Source: Bacillus sp. FJAT-42376
GTDB taxonomy: Bacteria > Bacillota > Bacilli > Bacillales > Bacillaceae
Reading direction: 5' to 3'
Assembly: GCF_003816055.1 (NCBI RefSeq)
Contig: NZ_CP033906.1
Coordinates: forward strand, 4,092,001-4,156,000
Length of the DNA stretch: 64,000 bases
The position numbers and the translations under genes were made by a program. Below the pieces are notes generated by a model. That model had not been told where the DNA came from and made no database searches. It worked only from the letters and a program-made list of their open reading frames with translations. Position 1 is the stretch's first letter, and each line of letters starts with the position of its first letter. Below, in pieces: positions 22,816 through 45,951 of this stretch.

Positions 22816-22830
22816 AATAATATCCTCCAA

Positions 22831-23837: not shown

Positions 23838-23887
23838 AATATGCAACCTCCATTATTCACCTTACCTGAGCCGCATAAGAATAAAAC

Positions 23888-23912
23888 ACACCATGTCAAA
23901 TAGCCATGGTGT
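23888..23912 (-). terminator. riboswitch expression-platform terminator
   Basis: Perfect 8-bp hairpin ACACCATG / CATGGTGT followed by GTTTTATTC on the minus strand, only 8 bp beyond the aptamer and 51 bp before the gene start. Its position suits a terminator that ligand binding would switch. Confidence 0.8.
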
Positions 23913-23919
23913 CATTGTT

Positions 23920-24006
23920 GCTTACCTACGGCGGCCTGACGATCCTAGCATAATATGCCTTAGACTCACGGCTTTGCGTCCCCGCTTTTCAGCGGGTTTG
24001 CCTTTA
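23920..24006 (-). promoter_or_regulatory. cyclic di-GMP-I (GEMM-I) riboswitch aptamer
   Basis: On the minus strand the conserved class I core is present in order: AAAGGCAAACC, a GAAA-capped hairpin CCGCT-GAAA-AGCGG, GGGACGCAAAGCC, then GTCTAAGG, a short variable stem, CTAGGATCGTCAGGC and a closing GCCGTAGGTAAGC. GGCAAACC-GAAA-GGGACGCAAAGCC is diagnostic for the c-di-GMP-I family: the tetraloop docks in the receptor and the G and A residues bind the dinucleotide. It lies directly before the terminator at 23888-23912 and the small gene at 23397-23837. Boundaries are approximate to about 5 nt. Confidence 0.9.
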
Positions 24007-24130
24007 TACTGGTATAATTGGCTATTTTTTCAACAGTGACTATTATACTACTAGATAAACAAATTATCTATTTAATTTTTTGATTCATTTACCAAATAAG
24101 GAGTCTTGCACCCATTTTTTTTAAAAAAGA

Positions 24131-24152
24131 GACTGACAATCACTTGTCAGTC
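24131..24152 (-). terminator. terminator of the 5'-nucleotidase gene
   Basis: Perfect GACTGACAA / TTGTCAGTC stem, 4-nt loop, then TCTTTTTT on the minus strand. Confidence 0.88.
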
Positions 24153-24169
24153 CCCCGATAAGCCTTATT

Positions 24170-26527
24170 TTATTGAACTGCACTTAGGTCTATTATACGC
24201 CCTTCAACCGCTGGCTTAATGCCAGGATTTGCTTTTAAGTACTGGCTGAACGTTTCCCAGTCCGTGAAGCCTGGCTCGCTGACACGGCCTTCGTCGTATG
24301 CCTTTTTAAACATGGAGTAGCTGTCTCCGCCTGCTGCTGTAAATGCATTCGTTGCCACAGCATACATTTTTGCCGGATCCAAAGCCGTGTAGTTCGTTCC
24401 ATCTTCTTTCACTTCTGCTTTTACCACCCGCTGTCCAGCCGGTTTAGAGCTGTCATACGTGAACTTCATTCCCGCCACATGAAGGAATGCCCCTGCTTCT
24501 TTCGGTGCCAGCTCCACACTGTGTTCAAGAGCAGCCTTGATTTCTTCACCCTTAAGGTTCATGATGGCAAGGGAATTTCCGAAAGGCATAACCGTCAGGA
24601 TTTCACCCATTGTTACATCCCCCGCATCGATTGACTCACGGATTCCTCCTCCGTTTTGAACTGCGATCACCGTTTTAGGATTGATCGTTTTCGCTCTTGC
24701 AAGCATCCCATCCGCAATCAGATTTCCCAAATTTGTTTCTTTTGTGCGGACATCCGCACGGACACCATTCAGGACTGTGTCTGTTTTAGCGACCACTTCG
24801 TTTTTAATTTTATTAATGCCAGGTCTGTATTTTGAATCAAGGATTGATGCTGCTTCCTGATCTTCTTTAATAACATACTGATCCCCGGATTTTTGGTCAA
24901 TATCGATCAGTTTGCCTGCTTGCTTGATTATTTTTCCGGCTGGATCAAATTCAACATCCAGAACACCAAGGTTTTTGCTGAGCTCTCCCGTTTGAACGAT
25001 GACGGTAGGTTCAGCTCCCGTGTTATCCAGAACCGGTGCACTCAGTACCGTATGGGAGTGCCCGCCGACAATAATGTCAATGCCTTCGACTTCTTTAGCA
25101 AGCGTCACATCATTATCCCCGCCGCCATCCTGGTAACCGATGTGAGTGAGGGCAACGATCTTGTTAATCCCTTGAGCCTGGAGCTGTTTAACCGCTTCTT
25201 TTGCTTCCGCGATGTAGTTTTCAAAGGCAACGTCCTTACCAGGGCTTGAAATGGTTTCCGTTTCTGCGGTGGTAAGACCAAAAATACCCACTCTTTCTCC
25301 GTCCATGTTTTTCACGATGGCACTGTAGGAGTGGCCATCTTTCGGATCAGCCGTTACGTCAGAGCTTGTATAAGCTTTCATATTGGCATCCTTTGAAAAA
25401 TCTACATTCGCGCTGACAAATGGGAATTTTGCTTTTTTAACGAAATCAGCGAGTGTGGCGGTTCCAAGATCAAACTCATGGTTCCCAAATGTCATGGCAT
25501 CATAGTTAAGGAGATTCATCAGCTCAAGATCTGCCTGCCCTTTGTATTCGTTAAAATACAGAGTGCCAGAGAAGACGTCCCCAGCGCTGAGAAGAAGGGC
25601 GTTCTCCTTTTGAGCTCTTGTTTCTTTGATAGCTGTAGCCATTCTGGGAGCGCGGTCTAAATTTGCATGAGTGTCGTTCGTGTGCAGAACAGACAGCTCA
25701 AAGTTTGATGGGAATTGAGTCCGATATTGGATTTTCAACGACTCTTTTTCTTTCATTAACGCCGGCTCAAGTGATGCGTCTACTAAAGAATACAGATCCT
25801 TAAGCAGCTGATTGTCAGGATGAAGGTTAGTAAGAGCTGTCCGAAGGTCTTTCCCTTTTCCTTCTAGCATCGTGATAATGGCAAACATCGCATCTGCCTG
25901 TGTTTGATCTTTCCCTGCAAGAGCGGCTTTGGCTTTTTGGTGGTAATCATAGCGGGTCATTTCAGAAGAGAAGGACTCCGTCGTCAATTTAGCAGGCAAG
26001 ACGAAACGAGTGTTTACAACGTTTCTGGATGTACTTCCATAAACTTTTGAAACCAGTTTTTCAAGCTGCATCGTTTGTTTTCTAAGCTGATCATAGGCTT
26101 TTCTTAACTCTGAAGGAGACATAACAAGAAAATCTGCTTTAATTTTGTTCCTTGCCGAATCCAGTTTTTCACCGTATTTAACCGCATCGATGAGGTATGC
26201 CGTACGCAGGCGCTGAATTTCAGAAAACTCAAGACGATCATTCATCAGCCTTTTAATGCGTGGACTGCTAATTTTAGCAACTTCTTTTTTGGCATCAGCA
26301 ATGGTATTTTTGGCGTTGTTATATCTCGTTAGAAAACTAGGAGATAATAGCAAATCTCCTGCTTCATCCACCTTATATAGCGCGGAGAGAGAATTGGAAT
26401 AGAACTCGGCGTTTTTAACGGCCTGCTCCGCTTTCGAGCTGGATGCAGCCTGCGCAGGGTTAACCGCTGCAACAGTGGAAACAGCCAGGGCAGCAAGGCC
26501 AGCTTTCACAAATTTACTTTTCGGCAT
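24170..26527 (-). CDS. secreted 5'-nucleotidase (UshA/YfkN-like) with N-terminal SbsC-type module
   Basis: A 785-residue wall-associated phosphatase. After a signal peptide (1-27) the helical polymer-binding module covers about residues 30-262, with TAYLIDAVKYGEKLD and KLVSKVYGSTSRNVVNTRFV followed by PAKLTTESFSSEMTRYDY. Then comes a calcineurin-like metallophosphatase domain with SVLHTNDTHANLD, GDVFSGT, FGNHEFDLG, LTHIGYQDGGG and GGHSHT for the two metals, and a C-terminal 5'-nucleotidase domain with IAVQNGGGIRES and GDSYSMFK, the substrate-binding parts. It should release phosphate and nucleosides from nucleotides outside the cell. The ATG has AAGGAGG upstream. PhoP-box-like repeats lie about 110 bp upstream, so phosphate control is plausible. 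Confidence 0.93.
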   Translation of the reverse strand: MPKSKFVKAGLAALAVSTVAAVNPAQAASSSKAEQAVKNAEFYSNSLSALYKVDEAGDLLLSPSFLTRYNNAKNTIADAKKEVAKISSPRIKRLMNDRLEFSEIQRLRTAYLIDAVKYGEKLDSARNKIKADFLVMSPSELRKAYDQLRKQTMQLEKLVSKVYGSTSRNVVNTRFVLPAKLTTESFSSEMTRYDYHQKAKAALAGKDQTQADAMFAIITMLEGKGKDLRTALTNLHPDNQLLKDLYSLVDASLEPALMKEKESLKIQYRTQFPSNFELSVLHTNDTHANLDRAPRMATAIKETRAQKENALLLSAGDVFSGTLYFNEYKGQADLELMNLLNYDAMTFGNHEFDLGTATLADFVKKAKFPFVSANVDFSKDANMKAYTSSDVTADPKDGHSYSAIVKNMDGERVGIFGLTTAETETISSPGKDVAFENYIAEAKEAVKQLQAQGINKIVALTHIGYQDGGGDNDVTLAKEVEGIDIIVGGHSHTVLSAPVLDNTGAEPTVIVQTGELSKNLGVLDVEFDPAGKIIKQAGKLIDIDQKSGDQYVIKEDQEAASILDSKYRPGINKIKNEVVAKTDTVLNGVRADVRTKETNLGNLIADGMLARAKTINPKTVIAVQNGGGIRESIDAGDVTMGEILTVMPFGNSLAIMNLKGEEIKAALEHSVELAPKEAGAFLHVAGMKFTYDSSKPAGQRVVKAEVKEDGTNYTALDPAKMYAVATNAFTAAGGDSYSMFKKAYDEGRVSEPGFTDWETFSQYLKANPGIKPAVEGRIIDLSAVQ

Positions 26528-26637
26528 GTCTATAGTTCCTCCTTGAGTTTACTCGTATGTAAGCCAACAAAGTTCCAGTGAATGATTATAAAAGCTTACT
26601 TATCTTTGAGTCTATCGTATTACAGAAGTCATATCTA

Positions 26638-26672
26638 TGTTAAAAATGTAAATTATGTATTTCGTTTGTAAA
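26638..26672 (-). promoter_or_regulatory. PhoP-box-like repeats upstream of the 5'-nucleotidase gene
   Basis: On the minus strand TTTACA, AATACA, TTTACA and TTAACA follow each other with 11, 9 and 9 bp periods (plus-strand positions 26667, 26656, 26647, 26638). Three of four match TT(A/C/T)ACA-type PhoP half-sites. The region is AT-rich, so chance matches are possible. Confidence 0.42.
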
Positions 26673-26796
26673 AAAACTTTAGAAAAAACAAATGACGAAC
26701 CGGGGTGAAACTTTTATAATTAAAAAGACCTAAGTCTTTATAACCATAAATATTATTTGCTAGTAGATGTTTCATAAAAAGGAGAAAAAACAACCA

Positions 26797-27777
26797 ATGA
26801 AGAAGATACTGATCCTGGTTTTATTATTATGTTTCGCTATGCCTCACAAAATCTATGCTTTAAGCAGCAGCCCATATGTTAAGGAGTATATAGAAAATAA
26901 ATTTCAATACGAACCTTTCATGCAAGATTACAAAGTTAATAATGATTATTTAAATTTCTCTACTGCAAAAGAGTTCAAACCTGAAAAATTCATTTGGGAT
27001 GAGAACGGTATTCCCATGGTTAAGTACGGTGCCAAAACAGAATACAATCCGGTTACTACCGCTCAAGGCGCTTTATACTATCACGGAAAATATCTCACTA
27101 CTAAAAGCTCTGAAGACCGGGAAGCTTTTATTAAACTCACGGATGCTTTAATAAAAATGCAATCAAAAGACGGATCCTTCCGGTATTCCTTTTCCCATCG
27201 AATTCCTCATCTCAAAACCCGCTATCCAATAGGATGGGTTTCCGGCATGGCCCAGGGGCAAGCCTTAAGTGTTTTTTCCAGAGCATTTGACGTGACAAAG
27301 GATATAAAGTATAAACTTGCGGGGAATGCTTCATTAACTTTTTTAACGACGCCAGTCTCCAAGGGAGGACCGATGACAGACCTCTCACACATTAGCACTA
27401 AATGGAAAGACCAAATCTGGTTTGAAGAATACATAACCGCGCCTAGAAATAATTACACCCTGAACGGATATATTTACACTCTGCTTGGTCTTTATGATTG
27501 GGGCTATAACCCTGAGATGACTTTATATGGCGGAGAAAAGGCAAAGGCTCTCTTCCAGAAGGGCCAGGACTCTGTAAAGAAAATTCTCTCAAAATATGAT
27601 ATAGGGGGATATACAGCATATGATCTCAGTCACTTGACGCTGAAACAGGAACCGCATGTTGTAGGTGAATACCACAGAATTCATATCTCTCAGATGTATG
27701 TTATGTACCGACTTACAGGAAGCAACTATTTTCTTGATTCCTATAACCGGTGGAAATCGTATGTTGAACCTGTTTAA
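26797..27777 (+). CDS. secreted D-glucuronyl C5-epimerase-like protein
   Basis: A 326-residue exported protein. A signal peptide (MKKILILVLLLCFA...YA, residues 1-22) precedes an (alpha/alpha) fold domain whose motifs PIGWVSGMAQGQALSVFSRA, WFEEYITAPRNNYTLNGYIY and GEYHRIHISQMYVMYRLT are those of the C-terminal domain of heparosan-N-sulfate-glucuronate 5-epimerases, including the conserved Tyr and Arg residues. Such enzymes turn D-glucuronate to L-iduronate within a chain. The chosen ATG (26797) follows AAGGAG, though the spacing is long; the frame is open from 26767. It stands alone between the nucleotidase and the giant beta-helix gene, on the opposite strand. A UDP-glucose dehydrogenase and GalU are encoded at 47-50 kb. 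The substrate is unknown. Confidence 0.78.
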   Translation: MKKILILVLLLCFAMPHKIYALSSSPYVKEYIENKFQYEPFMQDYKVNNDYLNFSTAKEFKPEKFIWDENGIPMVKYGAKTEYNPVTTAQGALYYHGKYLTTKSSEDREAFIKLTDALIKMQSKDGSFRYSFSHRIPHLKTRYPIGWVSGMAQGQALSVFSRAFDVTKDIKYKLAGNASLTFLTTPVSKGGPMTDLSHISTKWKDQIWFEEYITAPRNNYTLNGYIYTLLGLYDWGYNPEMTLYGGEKAKALFQKGQDSVKKILSKYDIGGYTAYDLSHLTLKQEPHVVGEYHRIHISQMYVMYRLTGSNYFLDSYNRWKSYVEPV

Positions 27778-27860
27778 ATAGAAGGTCTTGAAATTAAACA
27801 GAGGAATGGCAAAGTATGATAACCTCTATACTCATAAACATACATGGCTATAAATTCAAA

Positions 27861-27897
27861 AAAGGCTCTGCAGAGATTACACCTCTGCAGAGCCTTT
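27861..27897. terminator. bidirectional terminator
   Basis: AAAGGCTCTGCAGAG / CTCTGCAGAGCCTTT, a 15-bp perfect stem between the convergent C5-epimerase and beta-helix genes. Confidence 0.88.
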
Positions 27898-27923
27898 AAT
27901 ATTTATAAATCGTACTATATCTT

Positions 27924-30900
27924 TTAGTTAAATTTAACGACTCCATCCTCCAGCTTGAAATCTTTATCCATATCAAGAGATGCAGTCACTAAACGATTAG
28001 ATGCAAGCTCTGCAGATGGAGCTTTAGTATTATCTGCAGGCTGGCTCGGTGAGGATGCATTTCCATTTTCTAATGGCTGCTGTTTGTTTGACCACACAAC
28101 CTTTGAACTGCCTTCTAAATTGATTTTCTTGTATCCTGGCGCTCCTACGGATACATCACCATAATCAGAAAATATTTGAATATCCTCTGATAAGGTGCCT
28201 CTTTTAAAATTGAAACTAGGAGTTAGTGAGGCATTGCTTGGATTTGATCCTTTGTCTATATTAACCCCGTACCAGCTGTTCCCTTTCGTATAGAAACCAT
28301 CTGCTTCCACAACGGAACTGTTGATGATCAATCCTGCTGCTGCATTGTCATTAGCTTGTACTTCCACAAGACTTACGTTTTGAGATTCATAGACATTCAA
28401 TCCGCTGCCCGGCGCATTTTGGATGATTAGATTTTCAAGCTTTACTGCACCAGCCACTCCATTAATGGATAGTAAATTCTTTTCATACCCAGCAGAGTAC
28501 GTATAACCAGCTTTAGGCTTAAAAACAACCCGCCCTTTTCCAATTATCGTTACCGGTTTAGTAATAGCCAATTGCTTAGATAATTCGTATTCTCCCTCAT
28601 TGACGTAAATAATTGCACCTTCTTTCGATGCTTGTACAGCCTCTTCAAGAGTTGGATACAGCGTTCTTTCTCCTTGAATCACTGCTCCTTTTGCAAGTGG
28701 CTGCCCCTGGTTTGTCCAAATCAATTTTGAAGATCCGGCCACCCTATAGAGTTCTAAGTCCGCGATAACCTCTACCCCGCCTTTATCAGAGACGATTTGA
28801 GCAGGCTCTGATAGAGATCCGGAATGGAGTGTGAATTTAGCAGCAGGTGCTGAACTGCTTGGATTTGATCCCTTATCCACATTCACTCCATACCAACCGT
28901 TTCCGCTTGTTGTAAAGTCACTTGCCTCTACTACAGAGCTGTTGACGATTAATCCTGCGGCCGTATTTCCGATAGAGTTTACTTTTTTCAGCGTTACGTC
29001 CTGGGATTCGAATATATTGAGTCCGCTGCCTTGTGCATTTTTAATCGTCAAATTTTGAAGCTCTACTTTACCAGCGACTCCAGTAACAGATACTAGATTT
29101 TTTTCATAAGGTGCTGAAGGCGTATAATTGCCTTTAGGCTTTAGAACGACCTGTCCGTTTCCAATAATGGTTACCGGTTTAGTAATGACCAATTGCTTAG
29201 ATAGTTCGTATTCTCCCTCATTAACCCAAATAGTTGCGCCTTCTTTAGCTGCCTGCACAGCCGCTTCAAGGGTTGGGTACAGCGTTTTTTCTCCTTTAAT
29301 GACTGCCCCCTTTGCAAGTGGCTGACCTTGATTCGTCCAGAATAACTTAGAAGTACCTGCAACTGAATATTTTTCAAATCCTTCTGCAGAGACTGTCACA
29401 TCTCCATTATCGGAAAAGATTTTCGTTGGCTCCAACAAAGCTCCGCTAGTCAATGTAAAACTAGTGACAAGGTTTGGATTGCTTGGATTGGATCCTTTAT
29501 CCACGTTCACTCCATACCATTTGTTACCATTTGTGCGTAAATCTTCTGCTTCTACCACAGAGCTGTTAACAATCATCCCTGCTTCATTGTTGTTTAGAGA
29601 GCGGACATTTTTCAGCTTTACGTTATTGGATTCATACACGTTAATCCCGCTTCCCAGCGCATCCTGAATGGTTAGGTTCTCCAGTTTGACTGCACCAGCA
29701 ACTCCATTGATGGAGACCAGGTTGTTTTCATACCCTGCAGAGGCTTTATAATCAGCTTTAGGTTTTAGAACTACTTCACCGTTTCCAATAATGGTTACCG
29801 GCTTAGAAATAAGAAGCTGTTTAGGCAGCTCATACGTTCCTTCGTTAACATGGATGACTGCATCCTCGTCTGCTGCTTGTACCGCTGTTTCAAGAGTTGG
29901 ATACACCGTATTGTTTATTATTGCCCCTTTTGTACGAGGCTGACCGTAGCTCGTCCAGAACACCTTAGAAGTGCCACCTATCTTATATTCTTCAAATCCT
30001 TCCGCAGTAACGGATACATTCCCTTTATCAGAAATAATTTGGGTTTCCTCTGATATGGACCCTTTAAGGAATTTGAAAGAGGTTACCAGTGTGGAGCTGC
30101 TTGGATTGGATCCTTTATCCACGTTCACCCCATACCATTTGTTATCAATCGTGTAAAACTCATCCGCCTCTACGATCGAGCTGTTGACAATAAGCCCTGC
30201 TGCTCCGTTATGGCTTGAATGTACGTTTTTAAGCTTTACGTTTTGAGACTCAAATACATTAATCCCGCTGGCTTTTGCATTTCGGATGGTTAGGTTCTCT
30301 AGCTTTACTTGCCCTGCAACCCCGTTAATGGAGATTAAATTGTTTTCATAGGATTCCGTAGCAGTAAAATCGCTTTTAGGGCTGATAGCTACATTCCCTT
30401 CTCCTTTTATGGTAATTGGTTTCATAATAAGCAGCTGTTTGGACAGTTCATACGTCCCCCCGCTAACATGAATGACTGCCCCCGCGTCAGCTGCTTTCAC
30501 TGCTGCTTCAACAGTCGGATAAAAAGTTTCTCCCCCTTCAATTACAGCTCCTTTAGTGAGCACCTGTTCTCGGTTTGTCCATAGAGCCGCAGATGTATCA
30601 GCAACTTTATATTTTTTATATCCTGGAGCTGTTACTTCTCCCTTGTTAGAGAAAATTTGAGTCGGTTCCAGCAGGGTTCCATTTACCAATTTAAAACTTG
30701 CAGCCAGTTCCGGACTGCTTGGATTCGATCCTTTATCCACGTTTACCCCGTACCATTTGTTCCCATCAGTCTTAAGCTTTTCTGCCTCTACTCTGGAGCT
30801 ATTGATGATTAATCCAGCGGATGCATTTCCGATGGAACGGACATCCTTCAGCTTTACATTTTGGGATTCAAAAACATTAATTCCGCTTCCTATTGAATTA

Positions 30901-33284
30901 AGAATGGTTACATTCTCCAGATTCATTTCCCCTGCAACATTATTGATGGACACTAAATTCTTTTCATAGGACTCAGTGAATGCAAAATCATCCTTAGGAC
31001 TGATCACCACATCGCCGTTTCCAATAATCGCAATTGCTTTGGAAACTAAGAGCTGTTTAGACAGTTCATACGTTCCTGATTCCATTAAAAACGTATCATG
31101 ATCAGCTGCTTCACTTACGGTCTTCACTACATTACTGTGTTCATTTAAAACTTTCAAATTTCCATATGAACCAGTTTGAATTTTGTAGTTTATTGTTTTA
31201 CTAGTATCTTTATCATCTTTAACCACTAGAATATTTTCGATATTTTTAATGGCTGGTACTTGAATGGAATACTTATTTCTTTCACCTTCTACTGATGCGG
31301 CTGCCACTTTCATTCCATTCCATTCAACTGATGCAGGGACTTTACTGGAAACAAAAGTAACCGCTGTTGAATCTGATACGGTGACATCAGTGACCGAAAA
31401 ATCTATCGCAACAGGTCCTGGTGAGACGCCTCCTCCTGCTGGTGCCGCACTGCCTGAAGGTGTTCCGGGTATCACAATACCAGTTGCAGTCTCAACGTTT
31501 CCTTTGTTCTCAATTTGTACTGTACCTGTGACGGAAGGATCTTTTTTCACTTCTTTCACCACGGTGTTTTCAGGAATAACAAGCTTTGCATTTGAGTTTT
31601 GGATGTCTACACTGGTTTTCGAGAAATCACCTTTAAGGGTTATCTTTGAATCTTTGCTTTGAGAGGCTACTGAGACAGCAGCAACTTCAGATCCCTTTCC
31701 TGCCTCAACTGTTGCTTCCGCTTTTACCTCGATTTCCCTTACTTTTGCATTTTCTTCTATTTTCAAACCATTTCCTGAGCCAGATACAGTTATTTTTGAT
31801 TTGGAAAGATCGCCTGCAAGCGTTAGAACATCTCCTGCTTTTGTTGAATTGACTTCAACTTTTTCAAGGACTGCACCTGTCTCTGCAGTGATCGTCGCTT
31901 GAGTCTTCACCTGAAATTCTCTTATTTTTGCTGAAGACGAAAGGGAAACTTCGGGATTTTCTCCTTCTAAGGTGACTTTTGAATTTGAAAAATCACCCTT
32001 AAAGCTGATTCGTTCTCCTTCTTTAGCAGGTTTAACAAGCACAGAATCTACATGAGCACCTGGTGCTGCGAACAATTCTGCTTTTTTTGCGATTTCTACA
32101 TTCGTTAAAGATGATTCTGAATCAATTGATAATTGGGGTCCCTCATCTTTTATGGCTGAAACGGATTGAAGTGTTTGTAACATCGCTCGTTTCATGATTC
32201 GTTGGTCTAAAACAGTTAATTGGGCCGCATCAACCTTATTTAATGCAGCTTTTTCTGCATCGTGTATTTTTATCGTTCCATTTACTTTTATATTAGACAG
32301 TTCAACATTCCCGCCTATATCGTTTGCTCCCTGAATAATTAGATCACCGTTTATTTCAAGGTTTTTTAATTTAATGAATGAACTTTCTCCAGCTATTAAA
32401 ATTACATTGCGGTTGATAACCTTCTTGATTTCATTTCCATAAACAGTCGGTTTGAGGGGATCTTTTGAAGCAGCAGATATTTTGAGAACAAATTGACTTA
32501 ACACAGTATCCTTAGTATTTTTTAACGCAGTATTCATTCCCGTTAGCGCCGGATATTTTCCGGGATGAATTTTATTCCCCGTTTGCTTTATTTCAACCGC
32601 TCTTTCCTCTAATCTCGAAAGCATTTGTGTCAATTCTTCCGCTTCTTTCACTTTACCTTTTGAAATCCATAACTTTGCTTTTTCCAGAAGATTAAATTTA
32701 GAAACCTCGTATTTTACTGATTCTTTTGCAATTTTAGCAGGAAGCACATATTTTTTTTCAGCTAATAAACGTTTATTTTCTCCATATATCTTACTAGACG
32801 CTTTTTCAGTCTTTTTCATTTGCTCTGATAGCTGGTCATACACCTTGACCATTTCCATATTCATCTCGTCAGCATTTATGTATTGCATTAAAGCATTTGT
32901 TTGCTTTTCTAATTTCACCCCTGCATTAATCGCATCGATTAACCGTGCAGCTTTTACATGCTCATTTACTGCATTCTCTAGCTGCTGCTGTAAGCGGGAT
33001 TTGTCTTTTCCTTTATACCCATATAGGGCTTTCTTAGCTAAATCGATTTGACTCGATGCTTTACTATACAGCTTTGACACTTCAACACTTAAAACGAGCT
33101 GTGTATTTCCAGATCCGTAAAAAGGTTTTAGTTGACTGACAGTTAACTGGGCATTTTTAACCAGTTCATTTACAGTTACAGATGATGCTGAAGCTGGGGC
33201 TGGTGATACAACTGCAGCAGAAGCCACGAAAGCTGATGACATAACAAAAGCACTTGATTTTCCGAAACGTTTTTTCTTACCCAA
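27924..33284 (-). CDS. giant secreted beta-helix repeat protein with N-terminal SbsC-type wall-binding module
   Basis: A 1786-residue surface protein. A signal peptide is followed by the helical SbsC-like module (about 35-265: LIDAINAGVKLEKQTN, KASSKIYGENKRLLAEKKYV, PAKIAKESVKYEVSKFNLL, GNKIHPGKYPAL). Residues about 285-640 are short beta-rich segments (KGDFSNSKVTLEG, LAGDLSKSKITVSG, KGDFSKTSVDIQN) like a stacked helix. From about 715 to 1730 there are five copies of a 205-residue unit with VNEGTYELSKQLLISKPVTI, a right-handed beta-helix core (IQDALGSGINVYESNNVKLK) and the near-invariant KWYGVNVDKGSNPSSP. The repeats resemble pectate-lyase-like beta helices but no catalytic set is recognised. 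TTG start with AGGAG upstream. A ligand-binding or adhesive role is likely. Confidence 0.82.
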   Translation of the reverse strand: MGKKKRFGKSSAFVMSSAFVASAAVVSPAPASASSVTVNELVKNAQLTVSQLKPFYGSGNTQLVLSVEVSKLYSKASSQIDLAKKALYGYKGKDKSRLQQQLENAVNEHVKAARLIDAINAGVKLEKQTNALMQYINADEMNMEMVKVYDQLSEQMKKTEKASSKIYGENKRLLAEKKYVLPAKIAKESVKYEVSKFNLLEKAKLWISKGKVKEAEELTQMLSRLEERAVEIKQTGNKIHPGKYPALTGMNTALKNTKDTVLSQFVLKISAASKDPLKPTVYGNEIKKVINRNVILIAGESSFIKLKNLEINGDLIIQGANDIGGNVELSNIKVNGTIKIHDAEKAALNKVDAAQLTVLDQRIMKRAMLQTLQSVSAIKDEGPQLSIDSESSLTNVEIAKKAELFAAPGAHVDSVLVKPAKEGERISFKGDFSNSKVTLEGENPEVSLSSSAKIREFQVKTQATITAETGAVLEKVEVNSTKAGDVLTLAGDLSKSKITVSGSGNGLKIEENAKVREIEVKAEATVEAGKGSEVAAVSVASQSKDSKITLKGDFSKTSVDIQNSNAKLVIPENTVVKEVKKDPSVTGTVQIENKGNVETATGIVIPGTPSGSAAPAGGGVSPGPVAIDFSVTDVTVSDSTAVTFVSSKVPASVEWNGMKVAAASVEGERNKYSIQVPAIKNIENILVVKDDKDTSKTINYKIQTGSYGNLKVLNEHSNVVKTVSEAADHDTFLMESGTYELSKQLLVSKAIAIIGNGDVVISPKDDFAFTESYEKNLVSINNVAGEMNLENVTILNSIGSGINVFESQNVKLKDVRSIGNASAGLIINSSRVEAEKLKTDGNKWYGVNVDKGSNPSSPELAASFKLVNGTLLEPTQIFSNKGEVTAPGYKKYKVADTSAALWTNREQVLTKGAVIEGGETFYPTVEAAVKAADAGAVIHVSGGTYELSKQLLIMKPITIKGEGNVAISPKSDFTATESYENNLISINGVAGQVKLENLTIRNAKASGINVFESQNVKLKNVHSSHNGAAGLIVNSSIVEADEFYTIDNKWYGVNVDKGSNPSSSTLVTSFKFLKGSISEETQIISDKGNVSVTAEGFEEYKIGGTSKVFWTSYGQPRTKGAIINNTVYPTLETAVQAADEDAVIHVNEGTYELPKQLLISKPVTIIGNGEVVLKPKADYKASAGYENNLVSINGVAGAVKLENLTIQDALGSGINVYESNNVKLKNVRSLNNNEAGMIVNSSVVEAEDLRTNGNKWYGVNVDKGSNPSNPNLVTSFTLTSGALLEPTKIFSDNGDVTVSAEGFEKYSVAGTSKLFWTNQGQPLAKGAVIKGEKTLYPTLEAAVQAAKEGATIWVNEGEYELSKQLVITKPVTIIGNGQVVLKPKGNYTPSAPYEKNLVSVTGVAGKVELQNLTIKNAQGSGLNIFESQDVTLKKVNSIGNTAAGLIVNSSVVEASDFTTSGNGWYGVNVDKGSNPSSSAPAAKFTLHSGSLSEPAQIVSDKGGVEVIADLELYRVAGSSKLIWTNQGQPLAKGAVIQGERTLYPTLEEAVQASKEGAIIYVNEGEYELSKQLAITKPVTIIGKGRVVFKPKAGYTYSAGYEKNLLSINGVAGAVKLENLIIQNAPGSGLNVYESQNVSLVEVQANDNAAAGLIINSSVVEADGFYTKGNSWYGVNIDKGSNPSNASLTPSFNFKRGTLSEDIQIFSDYGDVSVGAPGYKKINLEGSSKVVWSNKQQPLENGNASSPSQPADNTKAPSAELASNRLVTASLDMDKDFKLEDGVVKFN
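28110..31140 (-). repeat. five tandem ~615-bp coding repeats
   Basis: Within the giant beta-helix gene the codons for WYGV...DKGSNPS recur near 28250, 28865, 29490, 30105 and 30725, a period of about 610-625 bp. The units stay in frame and are diverged at many third positions, so they are old rather than a fresh slippage product. Confidence 0.85.
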
Positions 33285-35111: not shown

Positions 35112-36335
35112 CTATCCGAATAATGGTTTACTAAAGAAATGACCGGCATCTTTAACGAGGGAGGATGCTGTATCCGAAACCTTCTTTAACCCCTTGTCAA
35201 CTGCCTTCTTCCCCTCTTTAATCATGTCGTTACCTTTTTCAATTGCGTCGTCTACTTTACCTGCAACTTTCCCTACTTTCTCCATAGTACCTCTAAAATG
35301 CTCAACACCCGAATGGATCTGATCTTTAAAGACTAATGCGACATCTTCAGCAATAAACTGAGTACTTTCGGCTACAACTTCCCCTACTATCCCTCCGGCA
35401 GTTGCCCCAAGAGCCCCTACAACAATTGTTCCGCCTGGACCCAGAAAAGTACCTGCAGCGCCCCCAAGAGCAGCCCCGGCAACAGAAAATCCAGTCACAA
35501 CTCCCGTCTTGTATACGGCTCGTCCAACCGCTTTTGCATTTTCTCGTTTTAATACCTCAGTGTTATTTCCGTATTTTTCGTAGTTCCCGGCAATGTCCAG
35601 ACCCATTCCGGTCAGTTCTGTTCCAGCAGTAATTAATGCTGTCATTGGGGCAGAAGTTTTAGCAAATTTCCAGCCTGTTTTCATTACCTGTCCAAAGGTA
35701 AACTTTTCCCCCGCTTCATTTACTGCCCCTTTAATAAACCCTTGAAAAGAATTCGTATAATTTACGACATCCTGCGGCAGATACTTTGCAAATTTCATGT
35801 GCACCAAATCTGCGAAAGAGTTACTCGCAAATTTCTTTTTTAAATACTTTAAGCCTAAGAAGCCTCTTGCTACATTCCTATACTCAGATGCATCAATTTT
35901 CGCTGCAAGTGACGCAAACGGTCCGTAATGTTTAAAGGACCACAAACCATTTGCTCCTAATGTATAATCCGTCAATCCTGTCAGCAAGTACTTCATTTGG
36001 TTGGCAGCTACAACTCCCATTCCTGTAACCGTTCCATACTTGTCATATAAACCATATAAAAATTGCAGGGTATTATCGGCTTCTGCCATTTTTTCAGATA
36101 CCTTGCGAAGATCCTTGTCCACATCATCCATTTTGTCGATTAGTTTGTCGCCGGCATCACCATATGTATCGACAACAGAGAAACAATGCGCAAACTTTGA
36201 ATCTACATTTAAAATCATCCTAGAAAGGGCATTTTTCAGATCTGTATTTATATCCTCAATCAGTGCAAGCTCCTTCACTACAGAATTCGCCAGACTTTCC
36301 AGCTTGTCAGGTTCAATTGATATTTTTTCAGCCAT
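35112..36335 (-). CDS. putative type VII secretion effector with glycine-zipper segment (YfjB-like)
   Basis: A 407-residue protein with no N-terminal signal. Residues about 1-110 are a long amphipathic helical region like the WXG/LXG export domain. The middle is helical with several short hydrophobic parts. Residues about 275-325 are a glycine-zipper segment (TGFSVAGAALGGAAGTFLGP, then GGTIVVGALGATAGGIVGEV) of the kind seen in pore-forming T7SS toxins. The C-terminus is Lys/Glu-rich, ending SKPLFG. It lies 19 bp downstream of the WXG100 gene and upstream of two genes that could encode a chaperone and an immunity protein. Membrane activity is inferred from composition only; a structural or channel role is the alternative. 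Confidence 0.62.
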   Translation of the reverse strand: MAEKISIEPDKLESLANSVVKELALIEDINTDLKNALSRMILNVDSKFAHCFSVVDTYGDAGDKLIDKMDDVDKDLRKVSEKMAEADNTLQFLYGLYDKYGTVTGMGVVAANQMKYLLTGLTDYTLGANGLWSFKHYGPFASLAAKIDASEYRNVARGFLGLKYLKKKFASNSFADLVHMKFAKYLPQDVVNYTNSFQGFIKGAVNEAGEKFTFGQVMKTGWKFAKTSAPMTALITAGTELTGMGLDIAGNYEKYGNNTEVLKRENAKAVGRAVYKTGVVTGFSVAGAALGGAAGTFLGPGGTIVVGALGATAGGIVGEVVAESTQFIAEDVALVFKDQIHSGVEHFRGTMEKVGKVAGKVDDAIEKGNDMIKEGKKAVDKGLKKVSDTASSLVKDAGHFFSKPLFG

Positions 36336-36354
36336 TTAAGAATTTCATCTCCCG

Positions 36355-36678
36355 TTAAGCAGTAGTGGGTTTCTTGCATGAAAGATTTAATGATGCCAAT
36401 TCTTTAGCACGCGCTTCTGCTGCTATTTGATCATTCGTTTGGTCAATTAAAGCAGCTGCCTTATATAGCTGCTCGCTTGTTTCCTGTAATTCCTGTGCGA
36501 ACCAGCCGTATTTTTTCAGCACATCTTGAAACTCCTCATCGAATTTTCCCCTTGACTCTCCGGACCAGTTTGAAATATCCTTCAGAGCCGTATTTTTTAT
36601 CTCAAATTCTGAGTCTATCACCTTTTCAGAAGCATCGGCGTATTTTTTTGCCAAATCCCTAACAGGACTTGAATCCAT
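36355..36678 (-). CDS. WXG100-family protein (YfjA-like)
   Basis: A 107-residue helix-turn-helix protein. The turn NWSGESRGKFDEEF holds the W-x-G motif near residue 42 and the C-terminal helix (FAQELQETSEQLYKAAALIDQTNDQI) is like EsxA/YukE helix two. Such proteins form helical hairpin dimers and are exported by type VII secretion or carry partners. It is the first gene of a four- to five-gene minus-strand operon. I chose the ATG at 36678, 5 bp after AGGTGA, over the GTG at 36687. No EssC/YukB ATPase is in the window, so the secretion machine must be elsewhere. Confidence 0.72.
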   Translation of the reverse strand: MDSSPVRDLAKKYADASEKVIDSEFEIKNTALKDISNWSGESRGKFDEEFQDVLKKYGWFAQELQETSEQLYKAAALIDQTNDQIAAEARAKELASLNLSCKKPTTA

Positions 36679-36687
36679 ATCATTCAC

Positions 36688-38937: not shown

Positions 38938-39177
38938 CTATAAATTTTTATTAAGTATCAGGAAGAAGGAGTGAAACAAAAGGTTGTGGTGGAGTTCAAT
39001 TAGGTATTGCTTAAACCGGACAAACGAAAATCTTGAAAGCGGTCCGTCTGAATCGCTAGCTTTCTCTCTTAAAAATTCATGAAATCCTTTCAAATCCCCA
39101 TCATAAGATTCAATCGTCTTCACCGCCCTTCCTTCTTCCTCTAGCCATTGCCCGAACATCGATTGCAGCTCTTTCAT
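38938..39177 (-). pseudogene. truncated phage integrase N-terminal fragment
   Basis: Seventy-nine codons (MKELQSMFGQWLEEEGRAVK, TIESYDGDLKGFHEFLRE, FVRFKQYLIEL) correspond to the SAM-like core-binding domain of a tyrosine recombinase. After about residue 60 the sequence diverges to an unrelated tail (LLFHSFFLILNKNL) and the catalytic domain is missing. It is a 3'-truncated remnant. It lies next to the RadC-like cluster. Confidence 0.6.
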
Positions 39178-39197
39178 CCGTTTCTCCCCTAACGAAA

Positions 39198-39229
39198 AAG
39201 AGCCCTGAATTTAAGCATTCAAGGCTCTT
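39198..39229 (-). terminator. terminator upstream of the integrase fragment
   Basis: AAGAGCC / GGCTCTT stem with a further TGAAT / ATTCA pair and a T-rich tract (TTTTTCGTTAG) on the minus strand. It ends transcripts of the 39228-40682 cluster. Confidence 0.65.
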
Positions 39230-39848: not shown

Positions 39849-40172
39849 TTAATTCCCCCATCTACTTTTTGTCTTATTACGGCTTCTCCGACTTTTAGAA
39901 GGACCTGCAGGTACCATTCTCTCGTTTCCGAATCCATTACCACTGCCCCCGATCCACTCCGTCCCATCCTCCTGTTCATAAATCATGGTCTCAAACAGAA
40001 GTTTTTCAGGAAGTTCATTCAACAATACGGCTGGAACAAAGCAATCCATCACTTCATCCTTAAACAGAATGACTCCCTCGCTGCTTACCTCTGACTCCTG
40101 AACTTTCAAACCAATCAGAGGAGCAATCATTTTAGTGAACCAATTTAACTCTATCCGTTCTTCCTTTTCCAT
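39849..40172 (-). CDS. hypothetical protein of the RadC-like cluster
   Basis: A 107-residue cytoplasmic protein. The first 75 residues are a mixed fold (LNWFTKMIAPLIGLKVQESE), the tail is Gly/Arg/Lys-rich (SRRSRNKTKSR). AAAGGGG precedes the ATG. It starts directly after the RadC-like gene ends (no gap), indicating coupled translation. Function unknown. Confidence 0.5.
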   Translation of the reverse strand: MEKEERIELNWFTKMIAPLIGLKVQESEVSSEGVILFKDEVMDCFVPAVLLNELPEKLLFETMIYEQEDGTEWIGGSGNGFGNERMVPAGPSKSRRSRNKTKSRWGN

Positions 40173-40682: not shown

Positions 40683-40809
40683 TTTGTATGCCTCCTCCCA
40701 AAATTAAAAATACCCTAACTCCGCTTTGGGAATTAGGACATCATATCACTTCATTTATATAATATTTATTTATCTTTCTCTTTTATCCGGTTTATAGACA
40801 AAAAGAAAA

Positions 40810-40837
40810 GCCCCGCAGAGATTTCTCTCTACGGAGC
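40810..40837 (-). terminator. terminator of the headless S-layer cassette
   Basis: GCCCCGCAGAGA / TCTCTACGGAGC imperfect hairpin, followed by TTTTCTTTTTG on the minus strand. The stem closely resembles the terminator of the intact S-layer gene (43213-43241). Confidence 0.75.
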
Positions 40838-40877
40838 CGTTCGTCATACTTCGAGTGGTGACAGGCACCATCTTTAA

Positions 40878-42884
40878 TTAATCTACAATTGTTACTTTGA
40901 ATGCAACTGGTGCAGAAAGTAAGTCATCAACTTGAGTTGTATCAACATCAGATACCACTACTGTAAATGAACCTGAAGTCTTACCTGCAGCTAAAGTAGC
41001 CACTCCATTAGCGATTGTCACATTAGAAGCATTTGTAGTTGTATAAGTAATACCATTAGCTGCCAATGCATCTGTATTAGCCAGAGTTCCGGCAGTTGTA
41101 GTACTCCAATCAATCACTTTTCCAGATTGATCTTGAATAGTCAACTTAGGAGCTAATGTATACTTGCTAGTTGCCGCATCATAATAACCAGTGAATAACT
41201 CATCCAGGACTAGATCTGCATTAGTTCCACTTACATTATCGTTGTCGATTACAATATCATTTGTATTAACAACCGCTTTAGTAGCAACTGCATCAGTATT
41301 AGTATAAGTTACAGCTTTAGTACCAATTTTTGTACCATTTACTAATTCATCTACGTTAAGTGTTCCTGCACCAGCAAAAGTTTTGTAAGCTGTAGCATTG
41401 CTACCCAGTACAGATACAGAATCTCCTACAACGTCAATGTAAGTTTCAACTTCAGGATTTTTATCATAGCCTTGGATACTTAGAGTTACATCGTCTGTGT
41501 CAACAGCCTGAATTTTGTTTCCTTGAGCATCTACTTCGTAAACTGTGAAGTTAACTGCATCATCATTCTCTTCAGGAGCTGTATCTTTGTCTAAGTCAAT
41601 TGCAGTAGCATCAGTTTCAATTGAATACCCTGCAAATGCACCAGCATCTTTACCAGTTACAGTAAAAGTTTTAGTAAACACTACATTACCTTTTGTGTCT
41701 TTTAGTTCAGCTGTAATAGTAGCAGTTCCTTTTCCAACTTCTGTAACAGTAACAGGAAGGGAAGAAGCAGCTGTTGTAACATCATTTAGAGCTACAGTTG
41801 CTACGTTTGTGTTGCTAGATTTAACAGTCATTGTTCCAACTGCGTTTCCACCAACTGAAACTGTGCCAGTTGTTGCACCTGTAGTAGCAACAGTCGCGTT
41901 GATAGCTTTATTGTATTGATCGGCAAGCTTAACATTCACGTCAGAAGTTTCTCCAGGATTTGTAGCTGTATTAAATGCTACGCTAGATTTATCAAGAGTT
42001 GCACTTGAAACTTTAGAGTCGGCTTTAACAGTGAAGCTTACAGTTGTAACAAAATCACCAATTGTTAACTTTACTTGTGCAGTACCTGTAGAGTATGCAT
42101 TTACAACAAGTTCTCCACTTACAACAGAAGCAGTTGCAACAGCTGGTGTTAAGTTTTCAATCTTAGTAATATTTGCAGCATCTACCACTTCTTCAGAACC
42201 GTTGTTCTTCACAAGAAGTTCTAGATTTGGAGTATCTGATAATTTCATTTCTTAAACTAGATCTCCATCTTTTAATGCTGTTTTAAAACCTGTAACAGTA
42301 TTAACATCATCACCTAGACCGAAGTTAGCAACAGATGAAACTGCTGTAGGAGCTAATGTTACTTTAATTGCATCGCTTTGTTTAACAGTATTGCCACCAG
42401 CATCTTTAACCGTTACTTGCACGTAGGCAACTTCATTTTCAGTTGCTCCAGCTACAGTACCAGCAATTGTTGTAACTTTTGCTGAAGTTGAAGAAACTTC
42501 TACAGTATATTCGTTAGTAACATCAATGCCTTTTGCGTTTGTTAATTTAACGGAATCAGCAATGTCATCGCCATTAACAAAAGTAGATTTAGTTAATTCA
42601 ACCTTGCTAACTTCTCCAATTTCATATGAGAAAGTAGAAGTTTGAGCTTCTTTCATTTCTACACCAGAAGCAGATTTAACACCGTTAACAGTTACAGCAT
42701 AATCAGTTTTGTCTGTAAGAGCTTTATTGAATGTTAAAGTAACTTCTTTTTTATTATCAGGATTAACTTCTGCTTTAACTACTGTTAGACCATTATCAGC
42801 AGTAAAGTTAGTAGCAGATACTTCACCAACATCACCTTTGAATGTTACTACTGCTTGAGTATCGTTAATCGCACTTTCTATAGG
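40878..42884 (-). pseudogene. headless, promoterless S-layer gene cassette with one in-frame stop
   Basis: An open frame of 669 codons on the minus strand, broken only by a TAA at 42252-42254; after it the same frame resumes (GAA ATG AAA TTA). The product (beta-rich, Thr/Val/Asn/Asp-rich, with ESAINDTQAVVTFKG, SKVELTKSTFVNGDD and VTVNGVKSASGV) is like the Ig-like repeats of SbsC-type S-layer proteins. There is no start codon, signal peptide or anchor module: the frame opens 3 bp before the segment ESAIN, exactly where VESVSAING begins the repeat part of the intact S-layer gene. A minus-strand terminator lies directly upstream. Length (about 667 residues) is close to the 625-residue repeat part of the intact gene. 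It is best read as a silent cassette or decaying duplicate. Confidence 0.75.
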
Positions 42885-42900
42885 TTACCCCCAAAATAAA

Positions 42901-42939
42901 AAACCTTACGAACCCAGTATTATCAAGGGTTCATAAGGT
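42901..42939 (-). terminator. terminator directly upstream of the headless cassette
   Basis: Imperfect 14-bp stem AACCTTACGAACCC / GGGTTCATAAGGTT (one mismatch), followed by TTTATTTTGG on the minus strand, 14 bp before the open frame begins. It would block read-through transcription into the cassette. Confidence 0.75.
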
Positions 42940-43212
42940 TTTAATAGAATGTTGCAGGTTAGGGTAATTTGTAAATGACGAAAAGGATCAAGATAAAGTA
43001 TAGCTAGATGCTTTTTGTCAACAAAATGAATGAGTTTTATTACTCAAAAACTACAGAGATTTTTCTCTTTGAGGTATTATAAAGGCGATTTACTTTACAT
43101 TTACTGTGCTTTTTAGCAAGAGTATTACTATTGTCCTGTATTCTTGCCCATTGGCCATTTAGCAGAATGGGGTTGTTGTCCCCTTTTTCCGAGTAACATA
43201 GAGACAAAAAAA
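42940..43212. other. intergenic region between the S-layer cassette and the intact S-layer gene
   Basis: About 270 bp, AT-rich, with no gene. I see no promoter-like pair pointing into the cassette. Confidence 0.5.
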
Positions 43213-43241
43213 AGCTCCGTAGAGTTTTTCTCTACAGAGCT
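43213..43241 (-). terminator. terminator of the S-layer gene
   Basis: AGCTCCGTAGAG / CTCTACAGAGCT hairpin with TTTTTTTTGTC on the minus strand, just after the stop codon. Confidence 0.85.
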
Positions 43242-43260
43242 TCTTTTTAATAATTATTTA

Positions 43261-45951
43261 TTAGTTAGAAACAACTTGTGAACCAGCAGCAACAACTAAA
43301 CCATTTGCATCAGTTAGGTTTACTGTTCCAGTTGCACTTGTTTTAACTGTAATTGCACCAGAAGGAATAGCAGTAAAAGTAAGTTGAACTTGCTTAGAGT
43401 TACCTGCTACTGTAGAAGTTGCATATCCAGAAGTTCCAACAGTGGTACCAGTTGCATCAGTTACTACAAAGTCAGCTGCATCTAGCTTAGTTCCACTAAT
43501 CGCTTCGCTGAATGTCACAATTACTGAGTTACCAACCTTAGAAGCTCCAGTTAATGTAGCAGCAGTGTTGTCTTCAACTTTAACTGTTTGACCAGTAGAA
43601 GCTACAGTCTTACCAGTTGTAGATTTAACACCTGCAACTGAAAGAATTGCGTTTGAACCAGTTCCGACTGCGCCAATATTTACGCTACCAGCTGGTAATA
43701 CAATTACAACTGTATCTTTGTTAGCATCTTTGAAGTAAATATCAGTTCCAGTTGGAAGAGCTTTACCGTCTAACTTGTAGTTAGCTAAGTTAAGAGCTGT
43801 ATCAGCAGTTACTTCCTTAGCAACAGAGTTATCAGAGAATGCTACTTCAAACTTGTTATTAGCAGGAGTAGAAACAGCAGCTAATAGGTCTGTTCCAGTT
43901 GTAGTACCAGCAGAAACTACAGCACTAGCAGTTACTAGAGCATTTTTATTAGCTTCCACTAGATCTTTAACCGCACCTGCTTCTAAACGGAATGTATAGT
44001 TGCCGGCAGTGAAGGCAGACGCATCAGCATTTTTGATAGTCACTTTTTTATTATCAGAAGAATCAGAAACAATAGTTAAACCTGTTGTGTTAACAGCAAT
44101 ACCATCACGACGAACTGTAAATAATGAATCATCAACAGTTACACCTTCGCTGAATGTTAAAGTGATAGTCTTTTTATCTGAGGACACTGAGGTACCAGTT
44201 ACAGTTGGAGCAACAACATCTTTTGTCATTTTAACATTTTGAGAAGACGCAGCGTTCTTGTTGCCGTAAACGTCTACTAAACCGTCTTTAGCAATTACAA
44301 GAGCTAAATCTTTATCAGCAGCAGTACCGTAAAGGTTTGTAGATGTAAAGTTTAAATCAAATGATGTACCAGTTGTATCTCCAGCAGTTGCAGATACTGA
44401 ATAAGGGAATGAAGAACCATCTTTTAAAACTGTGATAGCAGCTGCTAAATCAGCAAGAGTAGTTGAAGATGCTTTAGCACCTAACTTTTTATTGAAAACA
44501 ACACGTAAAGTATCTGAGTCAGCTTGAGTAACTGAAGCTACTCCTAAAGCTGATACATCTTTAGTGAATGTTACATTACCAGTGTATGCAGCTAGAGCAT
44601 TACCTTTGTAATCTTTAGCACCTGCAATATAGATGTCAGCTACAGAACCAGTTGCAACTGAAGCTGGTCTATTGAATGTTAACTCAGTAACAGGACCTGT
44701 AGATGAATTAGTGAATGCTACTGGTGTACCATTTACACGCAATACATCTGGGTTGCCAACAAGGGCCTCAGAAAGAGTTAAAGTTACTTCATCAGAAGCT
44801 GCGTCATAAGAAACACCTGTTACTGTTGGTGCAGTTGTATCGTCAACAGTGACTTTAGCGATGAATGGAGTTAGAGCTTTTGCGTCTGTAGTTTTAACCG
44901 CATCAGTTGCAGTTACTGTATAAGTACCATCGAAGAATTCAGCAACATCAGTACTTGTAATAGTTAAAGTTTTGCCGTCCTTGCTTAACGCACCTTCTAA
45001 TTTAGCAGCTGTTACTGATTCTGCATCAGTATCGGCAACAACGCTAACTGAAGAAAGTAATGTATCATCTGTACCAGCATCAGTGATTACTGTATCAGCA
45101 TCGATTGCTTTGTTGAATTTAACAACTAATTGTTTACCGTTAATCGCACTTACACTTTCAACTTTCGGAGTCAACTTAGCTTCGTAGCTAGCAATAACTT
45201 CAGCTTTATCTTTAGCTAGAGCAGCGTTGATTTCTTTAAGCTCTGGGTACATACCTGGGTGAAGCTTATTACCCGCTTCTTTAATTTTTACAGATCTTTC
45301 TTCAAGGCGTTGAAGAAGAGCTACTTTAGCAGGTACTTCGTCTAGTTTGTTATCAGCGATAAGCTGTTTAAGTTCTTTGTGTAGGTTGTAACGGGAAACT
45401 TCGAAAATAACTGTTTCTTTAGCGATTTTAGCAGGAAGTACGTATTTAGCTTGAACTGCTTCACGAACAGGAGCTCCGTAAACTTTTCCAGCTGTACGTT
45501 CTACTAGAAGAACGGCTTTAGAAACTTCGTTGTAAGCAGCTACAGTTGTATCGTCTAGTTTGTTAGCTTTCACTAGAACGTCAAGTGCAGCAACTTTTTT
45601 CATTAGATCGTCGCCAACTTTAACAGCGTCAATGATGCGAGCAGCTTTGATGCGGTTTTGTTCAGCAGCAGCTAGTTTAGTAGCCCATGCTCCAGTTGGT
45701 TTTGCAGCTTGTGCAGCTTTAACAGCTTTAGTAGCAGCGTTGTACTTTGCAGTGAACTCAGCAGAAACCATAACTTGATCTGCTTTAGTTACAGAGTAGT
45801 AAGGTTTAAGTTGAGCTACAGCAGCCTCAGCTTGTTTTACAAGAGTTTCAGTTTTAGATGCAGCAGCAGCTTGAGCCGGGTTAGCAGCTACTAGTGAGCT
45901 TGCAGCTACAGCAGCAGCTAGGCCAAGCTTAACAGTGTTCTTTTTTGACAT
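43261..45951 (-). CDS. SbsC-type S-layer protein
   Basis: An 896-residue secreted structural protein. Signal peptide MSKKNTVKLG...NPAQA (about 1-29); helical polymer-binding module about 32-262 (RIIDAVKVGDDLMKK, AGKVYGAPVREAVQAKYVL, PAKIAKETVIFEVSRYNL, GNKLHPGMYPELKE); then KLTPKVESVSAING, nearly the same as in Geobacillus SbsC; then Ig-like repeats (TAPTVTGVSYDAASDEVTL, APTVTGTSVSSDKKTITLTF) to the C-terminus. Codon use is skewed (GCA/GCT, GTA, ACT, no rare codons), typical of a very highly expressed gene. The ATG at 45951 follows AAAGGGG. A long leader of about 200 nt precedes it. No SLH domain is present. It probably forms the main surface lattice; SecA2/SlaP are likely exporters. Confidence 0.93.
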   Translation of the reverse strand: MSKKNTVKLGLAAAVAASSLVAANPAQAAAASKTETLVKQAEAAVAQLKPYYSVTKADQVMVSAEFTAKYNAATKAVKAAQAAKPTGAWATKLAAAEQNRIKAARIIDAVKVGDDLMKKVAALDVLVKANKLDDTTVAAYNEVSKAVLLVERTAGKVYGAPVREAVQAKYVLPAKIAKETVIFEVSRYNLHKELKQLIADNKLDEVPAKVALLQRLEERSVKIKEAGNKLHPGMYPELKEINAALAKDKAEVIASYEAKLTPKVESVSAINGKQLVVKFNKAIDADTVITDAGTDDTLLSSVSVVADTDAESVTAAKLEGALSKDGKTLTITSTDVAEFFDGTYTVTATDAVKTTDAKALTPFIAKVTVDDTTAPTVTGVSYDAASDEVTLTLSEALVGNPDVLRVNGTPVAFTNSSTGPVTELTFNRPASVATGSVADIYIAGAKDYKGNALAAYTGNVTFTKDVSALGVASVTQADSDTLRVVFNKKLGAKASSTTLADLAAAITVLKDGSSFPYSVSATAGDTTGTSFDLNFTSTNLYGTAADKDLALVIAKDGLVDVYGNKNAASSQNVKMTKDVVAPTVTGTSVSSDKKTITLTFSEGVTVDDSLFTVRRDGIAVNTTGLTIVSDSSDNKKVTIKNADASAFTAGNYTFRLEAGAVKDLVEANKNALVTASAVVSAGTTTGTDLLAAVSTPANNKFEVAFSDNSVAKEVTADTALNLANYKLDGKALPTGTDIYFKDANKDTVVIVLPAGSVNIGAVGTGSNAILSVAGVKSTTGKTVASTGQTVKVEDNTAATLTGASKVGNSVIVTFSEAISGTKLDAADFVVTDATGTTVGTSGYATSTVAGNSKQVQLTFTAIPSGAITVKTSATGTVNLTDANGLVVAAGSQVVSN

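Follow-up and report, generated by a model that had tools for sequence, protein, structure and literature searches.

The 64,000-nucleotide stretch of Bacillus sp. FJAT-42376 analyzed here (contig NZ_CP033906.1, positions 4,092,001 to 4,156,000; hereafter the window) contains an intact surface-layer (S-layer) gene and, directly downstream of it, a second S-layer body without an anchor. The intact gene (43261-45951, minus strand) encodes a signal peptide, an SbsC_C-type anchor (the head) and a body. The SbsC_C domain preceding the body (PF18058, E = 1e-26) scores above the cut-off, which identifies the protein as SbsC_C-anchored. The headless body, also called the cassette below (40878-42884, minus strand), contains an SbsB-type assembly domain and lacks a start codon, a signal peptide, an SLH domain and an SbsC_C domain, and thus does not represent a complete S-layer protein. 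A preliminary description of this DNA had reported a 669-codon frame on the strand of the S-layer gene without start, signal or anchor. The absence of these parts was confirmed, whereas the frame is not open: an in-frame TAA at codon 211 (42252-42254, minus strand), in place of which relatives have open copies, splits it into pieces of 210 and 457 codons. A stop at 42885-42887 immediately precedes the frame, which joins the body at residues matching VSAIN of the intact gene, with 13 bp identical at both junctions. After this motif 665 codons follow in the cassette and 629 in the intact gene. The opening at the equivalent of the anchor/repeat junction and the length similar to the intact repeat part, both claimed before, are thus borne out, as are two terminators, one just upstream of the cassette and one behind it. 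The former is a hairpin at 42900-42942 (minus strand; folding z -4.8), 15 bp upstream of the cassette frame, and the latter (40838-40809) is part of the 3' flank of the headless body (40791-40876, minus strand). The headed gene has its own terminator at 43205-43249 (minus strand). An Rfam scan revealed no RNA family at this locus.

The junction of head and body coincides with a conserved DNA site. In the headed gene the site, GTTN6GTAAGTGCGATTAAC, is located at 45139-45162 (minus strand). Its 13-mer part, AAGTGCGATTAAC (45139-45151), is repeated at the start of the headless body (42864-42876, minus strand), where it is preceded by GA, likewise in three of the six other headless bodies described below. 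The 4.25 Mb genome harbors only two exact copies of AAGTGCGATTAAC, both at head/body junctions, and none of the reversed control; two matches with one mismatch allowed occurred in none of 100 shuffles of the window. At the junction, GTAAGTGCGATTAAC is present in S-layer genes of both anchor classes (SLH and SbsC_C) identified through protein similarity. A site peculiar to SbsC-type genes was considered and rejected, as the SLH-anchored gene of Geobacillus thermodenitrificans carries it. Protein and family searches, for which PF18058 matches were fetched in part (20 stretches), yielded 14 S-layer genes reading VSAIN, seven of them already met by motif search. In 13 of these 14 the five residues are encoded by GTA AGT GCG ATT AAC, and all 14 have GTT at codon -4, with variable neighboring codons. 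The expectation from codon usage for the five VSAIN codons together is 0.0013; GCG accounts for 6.6% of Ala codons and AGT for 13.9% of Ser codons in S-layer genes, as counted in 33 headed genes that were mostly chosen by the motif. No P value is given for this conservation, because shared ancestry makes the genes non-independent. Judged from codon choice, the VSAIN junction appears to be an element at the level of the DNA.

The cassette is 64-71% identical to its closest SLH-anchored relatives. Its relative of solved structure is SbsB (PDB 4aq1, E = 1.3e-13, profile positions 2-572 aligned with chain positions 178-744), which identifies the assembly domain as SbsB-type. The two named loci related to the cassette are SLH-anchored S-layer genes of G. 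thermodenitrificans and Parageobacillus thermantarcticus, and at least 42 related proteins are found among the matches listed. The same body type is located behind an SbsC_C anchor in P0015 (68%) and behind another head in P0018, and it also occurs as headless proteins, some of which start at the same codon. The headless protein P0033 begins with MKQN-ESAIN, and in P0027 a tyrosine recombinase frame reads directly into ESAIN. Matches to the cassette at E<=1e-10 were obtained in five of 397 genomes of the order, its own included. Among 60 genomes searched, again including its own, a full-length homologue was present in one other, Bacillus smithii (G046), and G022 gave a 39-base match only. The body type was not found in the five congeners examined, and searches of plasmids, phages and viral contigs with the cassette gave no match. 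The cassette therefore seems to represent a body type foreign to the genus. As a duplicate of the neighboring intact body it was rejected (best blastp E 0.2). The divergence from G. thermodenitrificans by codon position is 0.22/0.15/0.45, and the cassette has 10 private substitutions, compared with 6, 13 and 16 in the similarly isolated P0015, P0018 and P0026. Both results are consistent with past selection and, the stop aside, show no clear sign of prolonged neutral decay. The decaying duplicate that the preliminary description offered as its alternative is thus rejected, given the foreign body type and the lack of clear long decay.

Heads and bodies of S-layer proteins reassort at the junction. 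For this comparison 151 S-layer-type proteins with a recognized junction, derived from 33 loci and the returns of two body-query searches, were cut there and compared all against all; shared bodies are enriched by this choice and the pairs are not independent. A common body (at least 70% identity over at least 400 residues) behind heads of less than 35% identity or without alignment was found in 70 pairs. Conversely, 90 pairs have a common head (at least 70% over at least 150 residues) and bodies that are less than 40% identical or aligned over fewer than 150 residues, and 66 pairs share head and body, both at 60% or more. The bodies of P0049 (SbsC_C head) and P0050 (SLH head) are 96.9% identical over 614 residues, the heads of P0030 and P0089 are 99% identical in front of unrelated bodies, and P0107 (named SbsB) shares its head with G. 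thermodenitrificans (91%) but not its body. A comparison of related strains for exchanged bodies behind a conserved anchor had been proposed as a check, and the window genome and its congener G001 provide such a case, with heads at 87% and bodies at 28% identity. Identity starts or stops at VSAIN or a few residues away in 16 of the 19 pairs printed, and no break at VSAIN is visible in the ungapped print of the other three (G318/P0126, P0010/P0146 and G137/G240). Exchange of bodies between genera is evident from the reassorted pairs. This comparison strongly supports the earlier proposal that a piece such as the cassette can take the place of a body without loss of the anchor, and so do the occurrence of the cassette body type behind both SbsC_C (P0015, 68%) and SLH anchors and the open headless bodies with adjacent recombinases in relatives.

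These headless bodies emerged from the distribution of the site across the order. The exact 13-mer is present in 80 of the 397 genomes, with 94 matches versus 31 for the reversed control. A script scan assigned 31 of the 94 matches to headed S-layer-type genes, seven to headless bodies or remnants and 56 to others, namely unrelated genes or frames of under 60 codons. Seven genomes harbor two exact motifs no more than 30 kb apart, and in all seven the two mark one headed gene and one headless body or remnant. The headless body is open in four of them (G071, G168, G149 and G366) and broken in three: by one stop in the window, after 29 codons in frame in G310, and after 81 codons, followed by transposase-like frames, in G081. 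As far as each extends, all seven pieces run in the frame that is readable behind a head. Five of the seven pairs (the four open ones and G310) have, on the strand of the headless body, open recombinase genes whose ends lie 130-912 bp upstream of it. Comparison of G310 with G080 gave upstream synteny alone, which is no proof of an empty site. The two Pontibacillus genomes (G071 and G168) possess an inverted pair of headed and headless genes and a single recombinase, 84% identical between the two genomes, that lies outside the site pair. Since the sites are inverted, inversion would swap the two bodies, which are only 32-35% identical over aligned parts, behind one head. Locus L085 (G071) also contains a gene for a 262-residue protein without a Pfam match, and L085 and L086 have the appearance of a ready-made invertible coat switch.

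The recombinases of G149, G310 and G366 (Lederbergia citri) form homologous tyrosine recombinase clusters, with 66-74% identity for two of the enzymes. In G149 and G310, each with four recombinase genes, the cluster separates the headed copy from the headless one; in G366 it lies upstream of the headless copy, which is 27.6 kb distant from the headed gene. The intervening DNA (C2 685716-713292) contains sugar-transport-like and transposase-like frames, as identified by eye, and a gene for a 210/211-residue protein occurs both between the two sites of G366 and beyond its headless body. The catalytic Arg and GH-Tyr are conserved in all 15 recombinases inspected, and HxxRH in 14 of them. Six that were scanned are Xer-like and score under the XerC and XerD cut-offs, and are thus by score not the housekeeping XerC or XerD. 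The second recombinase of the cluster (r2) was detected in 16 of the 397 genomes (E<=1e-55) and lies beside S-layer-type genes in eight (G149, G310, G366, G289, G053, G236, G400 and G332); in G140 the contig is too short for placement. In G236, which was found through the recombinase and not through the motif, the headed and headless copies carry the identical variant AACTGCAATTAAC with recombinases between them, as a matched site pair predicts. G053 also has recombinases between the two copies, and its two sites differ by one base. In L250, L251 and L252 (G354, G125 and G315) the four-recombinase cluster adjoins large frames of 1,233-1,390 codons, which may encode a further surface protein subject to exchange.

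At the window locus the S-layer gene and headless body are followed by a RadC-like JAB protein gene (PF04002; 40173-40682, minus strand), a neighbor that follows S-layer genes in other families as well, by the gene of a 107-residue protein without a Pfam match (39849-40172, minus strand), also a conserved neighbor, and by a tyrosine recombinase fragment (38992-39210, minus strand). The fragment matches only about residues 13-86 of the open 316-residue recombinase that occupies this position in the congener G005, and it contains a stop, so the window locus lacks an intact linked recombinase. G005 and the window align over 1,899 bp at 88.8% identity, and the alignment starts within 2 bp of the stop codon of the cassette. 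Upstream of the aligned part the G005 slot contains a different body remnant (L161, coding 11005-12105). The slots between S-layer gene and radC thus hold different bodies in the two genomes. By eye the G005 slot also seemed to hold a group II intron remnant, which Rfam did not support at gathering scores. The 3' flank of the window cassette (40791-40876) follows this different remnant in G005; in G001 it is found twice, once behind the headed S-layer gene (93%) and once in front of radC. These flanks are consistent with an insertion at the site that left an older body headless, and other orders of events are possible because of the second copy in G001. The hairpin upstream of the cassette resembles, by eye, the one between the recombinases and the headless body in G366, and this likeness suggests that a recombinase cluster was once located upstream of the cassette. 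Further SbsC-type-anchored proteins are encoded around the locus (13359-33284, minus strand), and the genome has at least 10 PF18058 matches (10 of 23 candidates scored). Other frames of the window were named by eye: a SecA-like frame at 4770-7196, and a small WXG-like protein followed by a 407-residue glycine-zipper-like protein at 35112-36687 (minus strand).

The window cassette is probably a disabled remnant of a widespread site-specific system for the exchange of S-layer bodies in Bacillales. Recombination at the conserved DNA site within the V-S-A-I-N codons, at the head/body junction, would separate a body from its cell-wall anchor, and the site GTTN6GTAAGTGCGATTAAC would allow Bacillales to exchange bodies behind a fixed head. 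Between direct sites this exchange would excise or integrate a body together with the recombinases, and between inverted sites, as in the two Pontibacillus genomes, a flip would decide which of two bodies stands behind the head. We infer that the linked recombinases act on the VSAIN site. The headless body of the window would be a displaced older body that is now inactive: it still has the hairpin upstream, the site and the flank on the right, but contains a stop, and its recombinase would have been reduced to the fragment. We lean, with some reserve, towards a dedicated coat-exchange system, in which Xer-like recombinases use the 24-bp VSAIN site to move bodies as cassettes from one position, species or anchor class (SLH or SbsC) to another, either by inversion or by integrating and excising an element that carries a body and the recombinases. 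Such a system would permit rapid change of the coat, plausibly driven by phages, although phage pressure as the driver is speculation. The mechanism of the preliminary description would then be correct in its main lines and wider in scope than suggested, with the window copy as its disabled remnant.

Several observations weigh against this interpretation. Of the three broken headless pieces, two comprise few codons (29 in G310 and 81 in G081), and an open recombinase was missing from the examined stretch in the pairs of the window genome and of G081 (none within 20 kb in G081). Among 28 junctions recognized in protein-found genes, the exact 15-mer is present in 13, and 14, B. smithii among them, do not read VSAIN and are 1 to 5 bases off the 15-mer; G184 reads VSAIN with other codons, and the junction pattern was not recognized in the congeners G002 and G004. 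The loci of the pair scan, the recombinase scan and the codon-usage set were picked by the motif. Neither a recombination event nor a circle or a mixed population was observed. Genus searches found the headless body of G366 behind a head in none of 15 other genomes, and that of G071 gave only a 29% match (G285) among seven other genomes; neither search found a swapped configuration. Because of the second flank copy in G001, either body of the window genome (G000) may be the older one. No recombinase match was present in the fetched stretch of 21 of the 31 headed genes, and in seven of the 16 genomes with the r2 cluster (G354, G125, G315, G385, G163, G286 and G191) no S-layer-type neighbor was found within the 19-20 kb fetched. 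These last two counts, together with the evident exchange between genera, would also be accommodated by ordinary RecA-dependent or short-homology recombination after transformation, in which the junction is mere homology and the recombinases are bystanders. This explanation is rather unlikely, as the fixed stretch comprises just 13-24 bp and heads in front of exchanged bodies are otherwise without homology; moreover, five of the seven headless bodies have recombinases less than 1 kb upstream, and in G236 and G053 recombinases stand between headed and headless copy.

The preliminary description had favored a silent cassette that still works. Its site and flanks are intact and recombinases acting in trans could serve it if the stop were tolerated; other tyrosine recombinases of the genome share 24-33% identity with the G005 enzyme. 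However, a coat protein made from it would be cut short by the stop at codon 211, only a fragment of the local recombinase is present, and no recombinase of the r2 type, that of the four-recombinase clusters, was found in the genome (E<=1e-55), so that a working cassette is improbable. Slightly less probable still is the decay of an SLH-type S-layer gene that was acquired by horizontal transfer and has lost its 5' part, despite the in-frame stop, the recombinase fragment nearby and a body type not found in five congeners, since a chance start at the junction is disfavored by the recurrence of the same breakpoint in other headless bodies, and since the cassette starts exactly at a 13-mer whose one other genomic copy is the junction of the intact gene and has no excess of private substitutions (10 vs 6, 13 and 16).

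Silent S-layer cassettes are also known from the sap system of Campylobacter fetus, which combines them with one expression site and an invertible promoter segment. The silent sap copies share a conserved 5' coding part, whereas the window cassette starts after the anchor and lacks such a part, and hence is not of the sap type. In Lactobacillus acidophilus, whose S-layer belongs to another protein family, Boot and co-workers are said to have described in 1996 an inversion that swaps the active and silent genes slpA and slpB. The Pontibacillus layout resembles this arrangement, but has its site within the reading frame, where anchor and body meet. The differences between the S-layer copies of Lysinibacillus sphaericus reportedly concern the C-terminal parts of full copies, according to the work of Pollmann and colleagues from 2005. 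Strain JG-A12/NCTC 9602 of this species (formerly Bacillus) has silent S-layer copies, sllA and sllB, and an element bearing integrase or recombinase genes (Pollmann et al. 2005, via PMC3573754, PMC4902306), so recombinase-bearing elements with silent S-layer copies have a published precedent. As in the genomes studied here, a functional S-layer gene is followed there by recombinase and helix-turn-helix genes and an S-layer-like copy, and patchwork evolution has been proposed; a junction site, a headless body and cross-anchor exchange are not described in the available parts of these two sources (PMC3573754, PMC4902306). Geobacillus stearothermophilus changes its S-layer by DNA rearrangement, between SbsA and SbsB and between SbsC and SbsD (Scholz 2001, Egelseer 2001, via PMC3919590). 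It shares with the present case this mode of S-layer change and the SbsB-like nature of the cassette, but a conserved junction site is not described in the part of that source available (PMC3919590). Recombinases in trio (RIT) elements consist, in the portion of the literature available, of three adjacent overlapping recombinase genes and are likewise mobile-looking tandem clusters of tyrosine recombinases (PMC3414803). The clusters of G149 and G310 comprise four genes instead of three, which sets them apart from RIT elements, and in eight of 16 genomes the cluster lies beside S-layer-type genes. The literature searched, in which most subscription journals were not represented and sources were available in part, yielded no account of a conserved site for recombination where S-layer anchor and body meet.

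Close relatives in Bacillales can have unrelated S-layer bodies behind conserved anchors (28% versus 87% identity between the window genome and G001). In the accessible parts of the literature, the divergence of these bodies has been attributed to rearrangement or patchwork evolution only (PMC3919590, PMC4902306). If the proposed exchange is true, the junction site and its linked recombinases would constitute a testable mechanism that explains differences in the coats of sister species. The site would also offer a natural, frame-preserving position for coat engineering and for the study of phage-driven coat switching.

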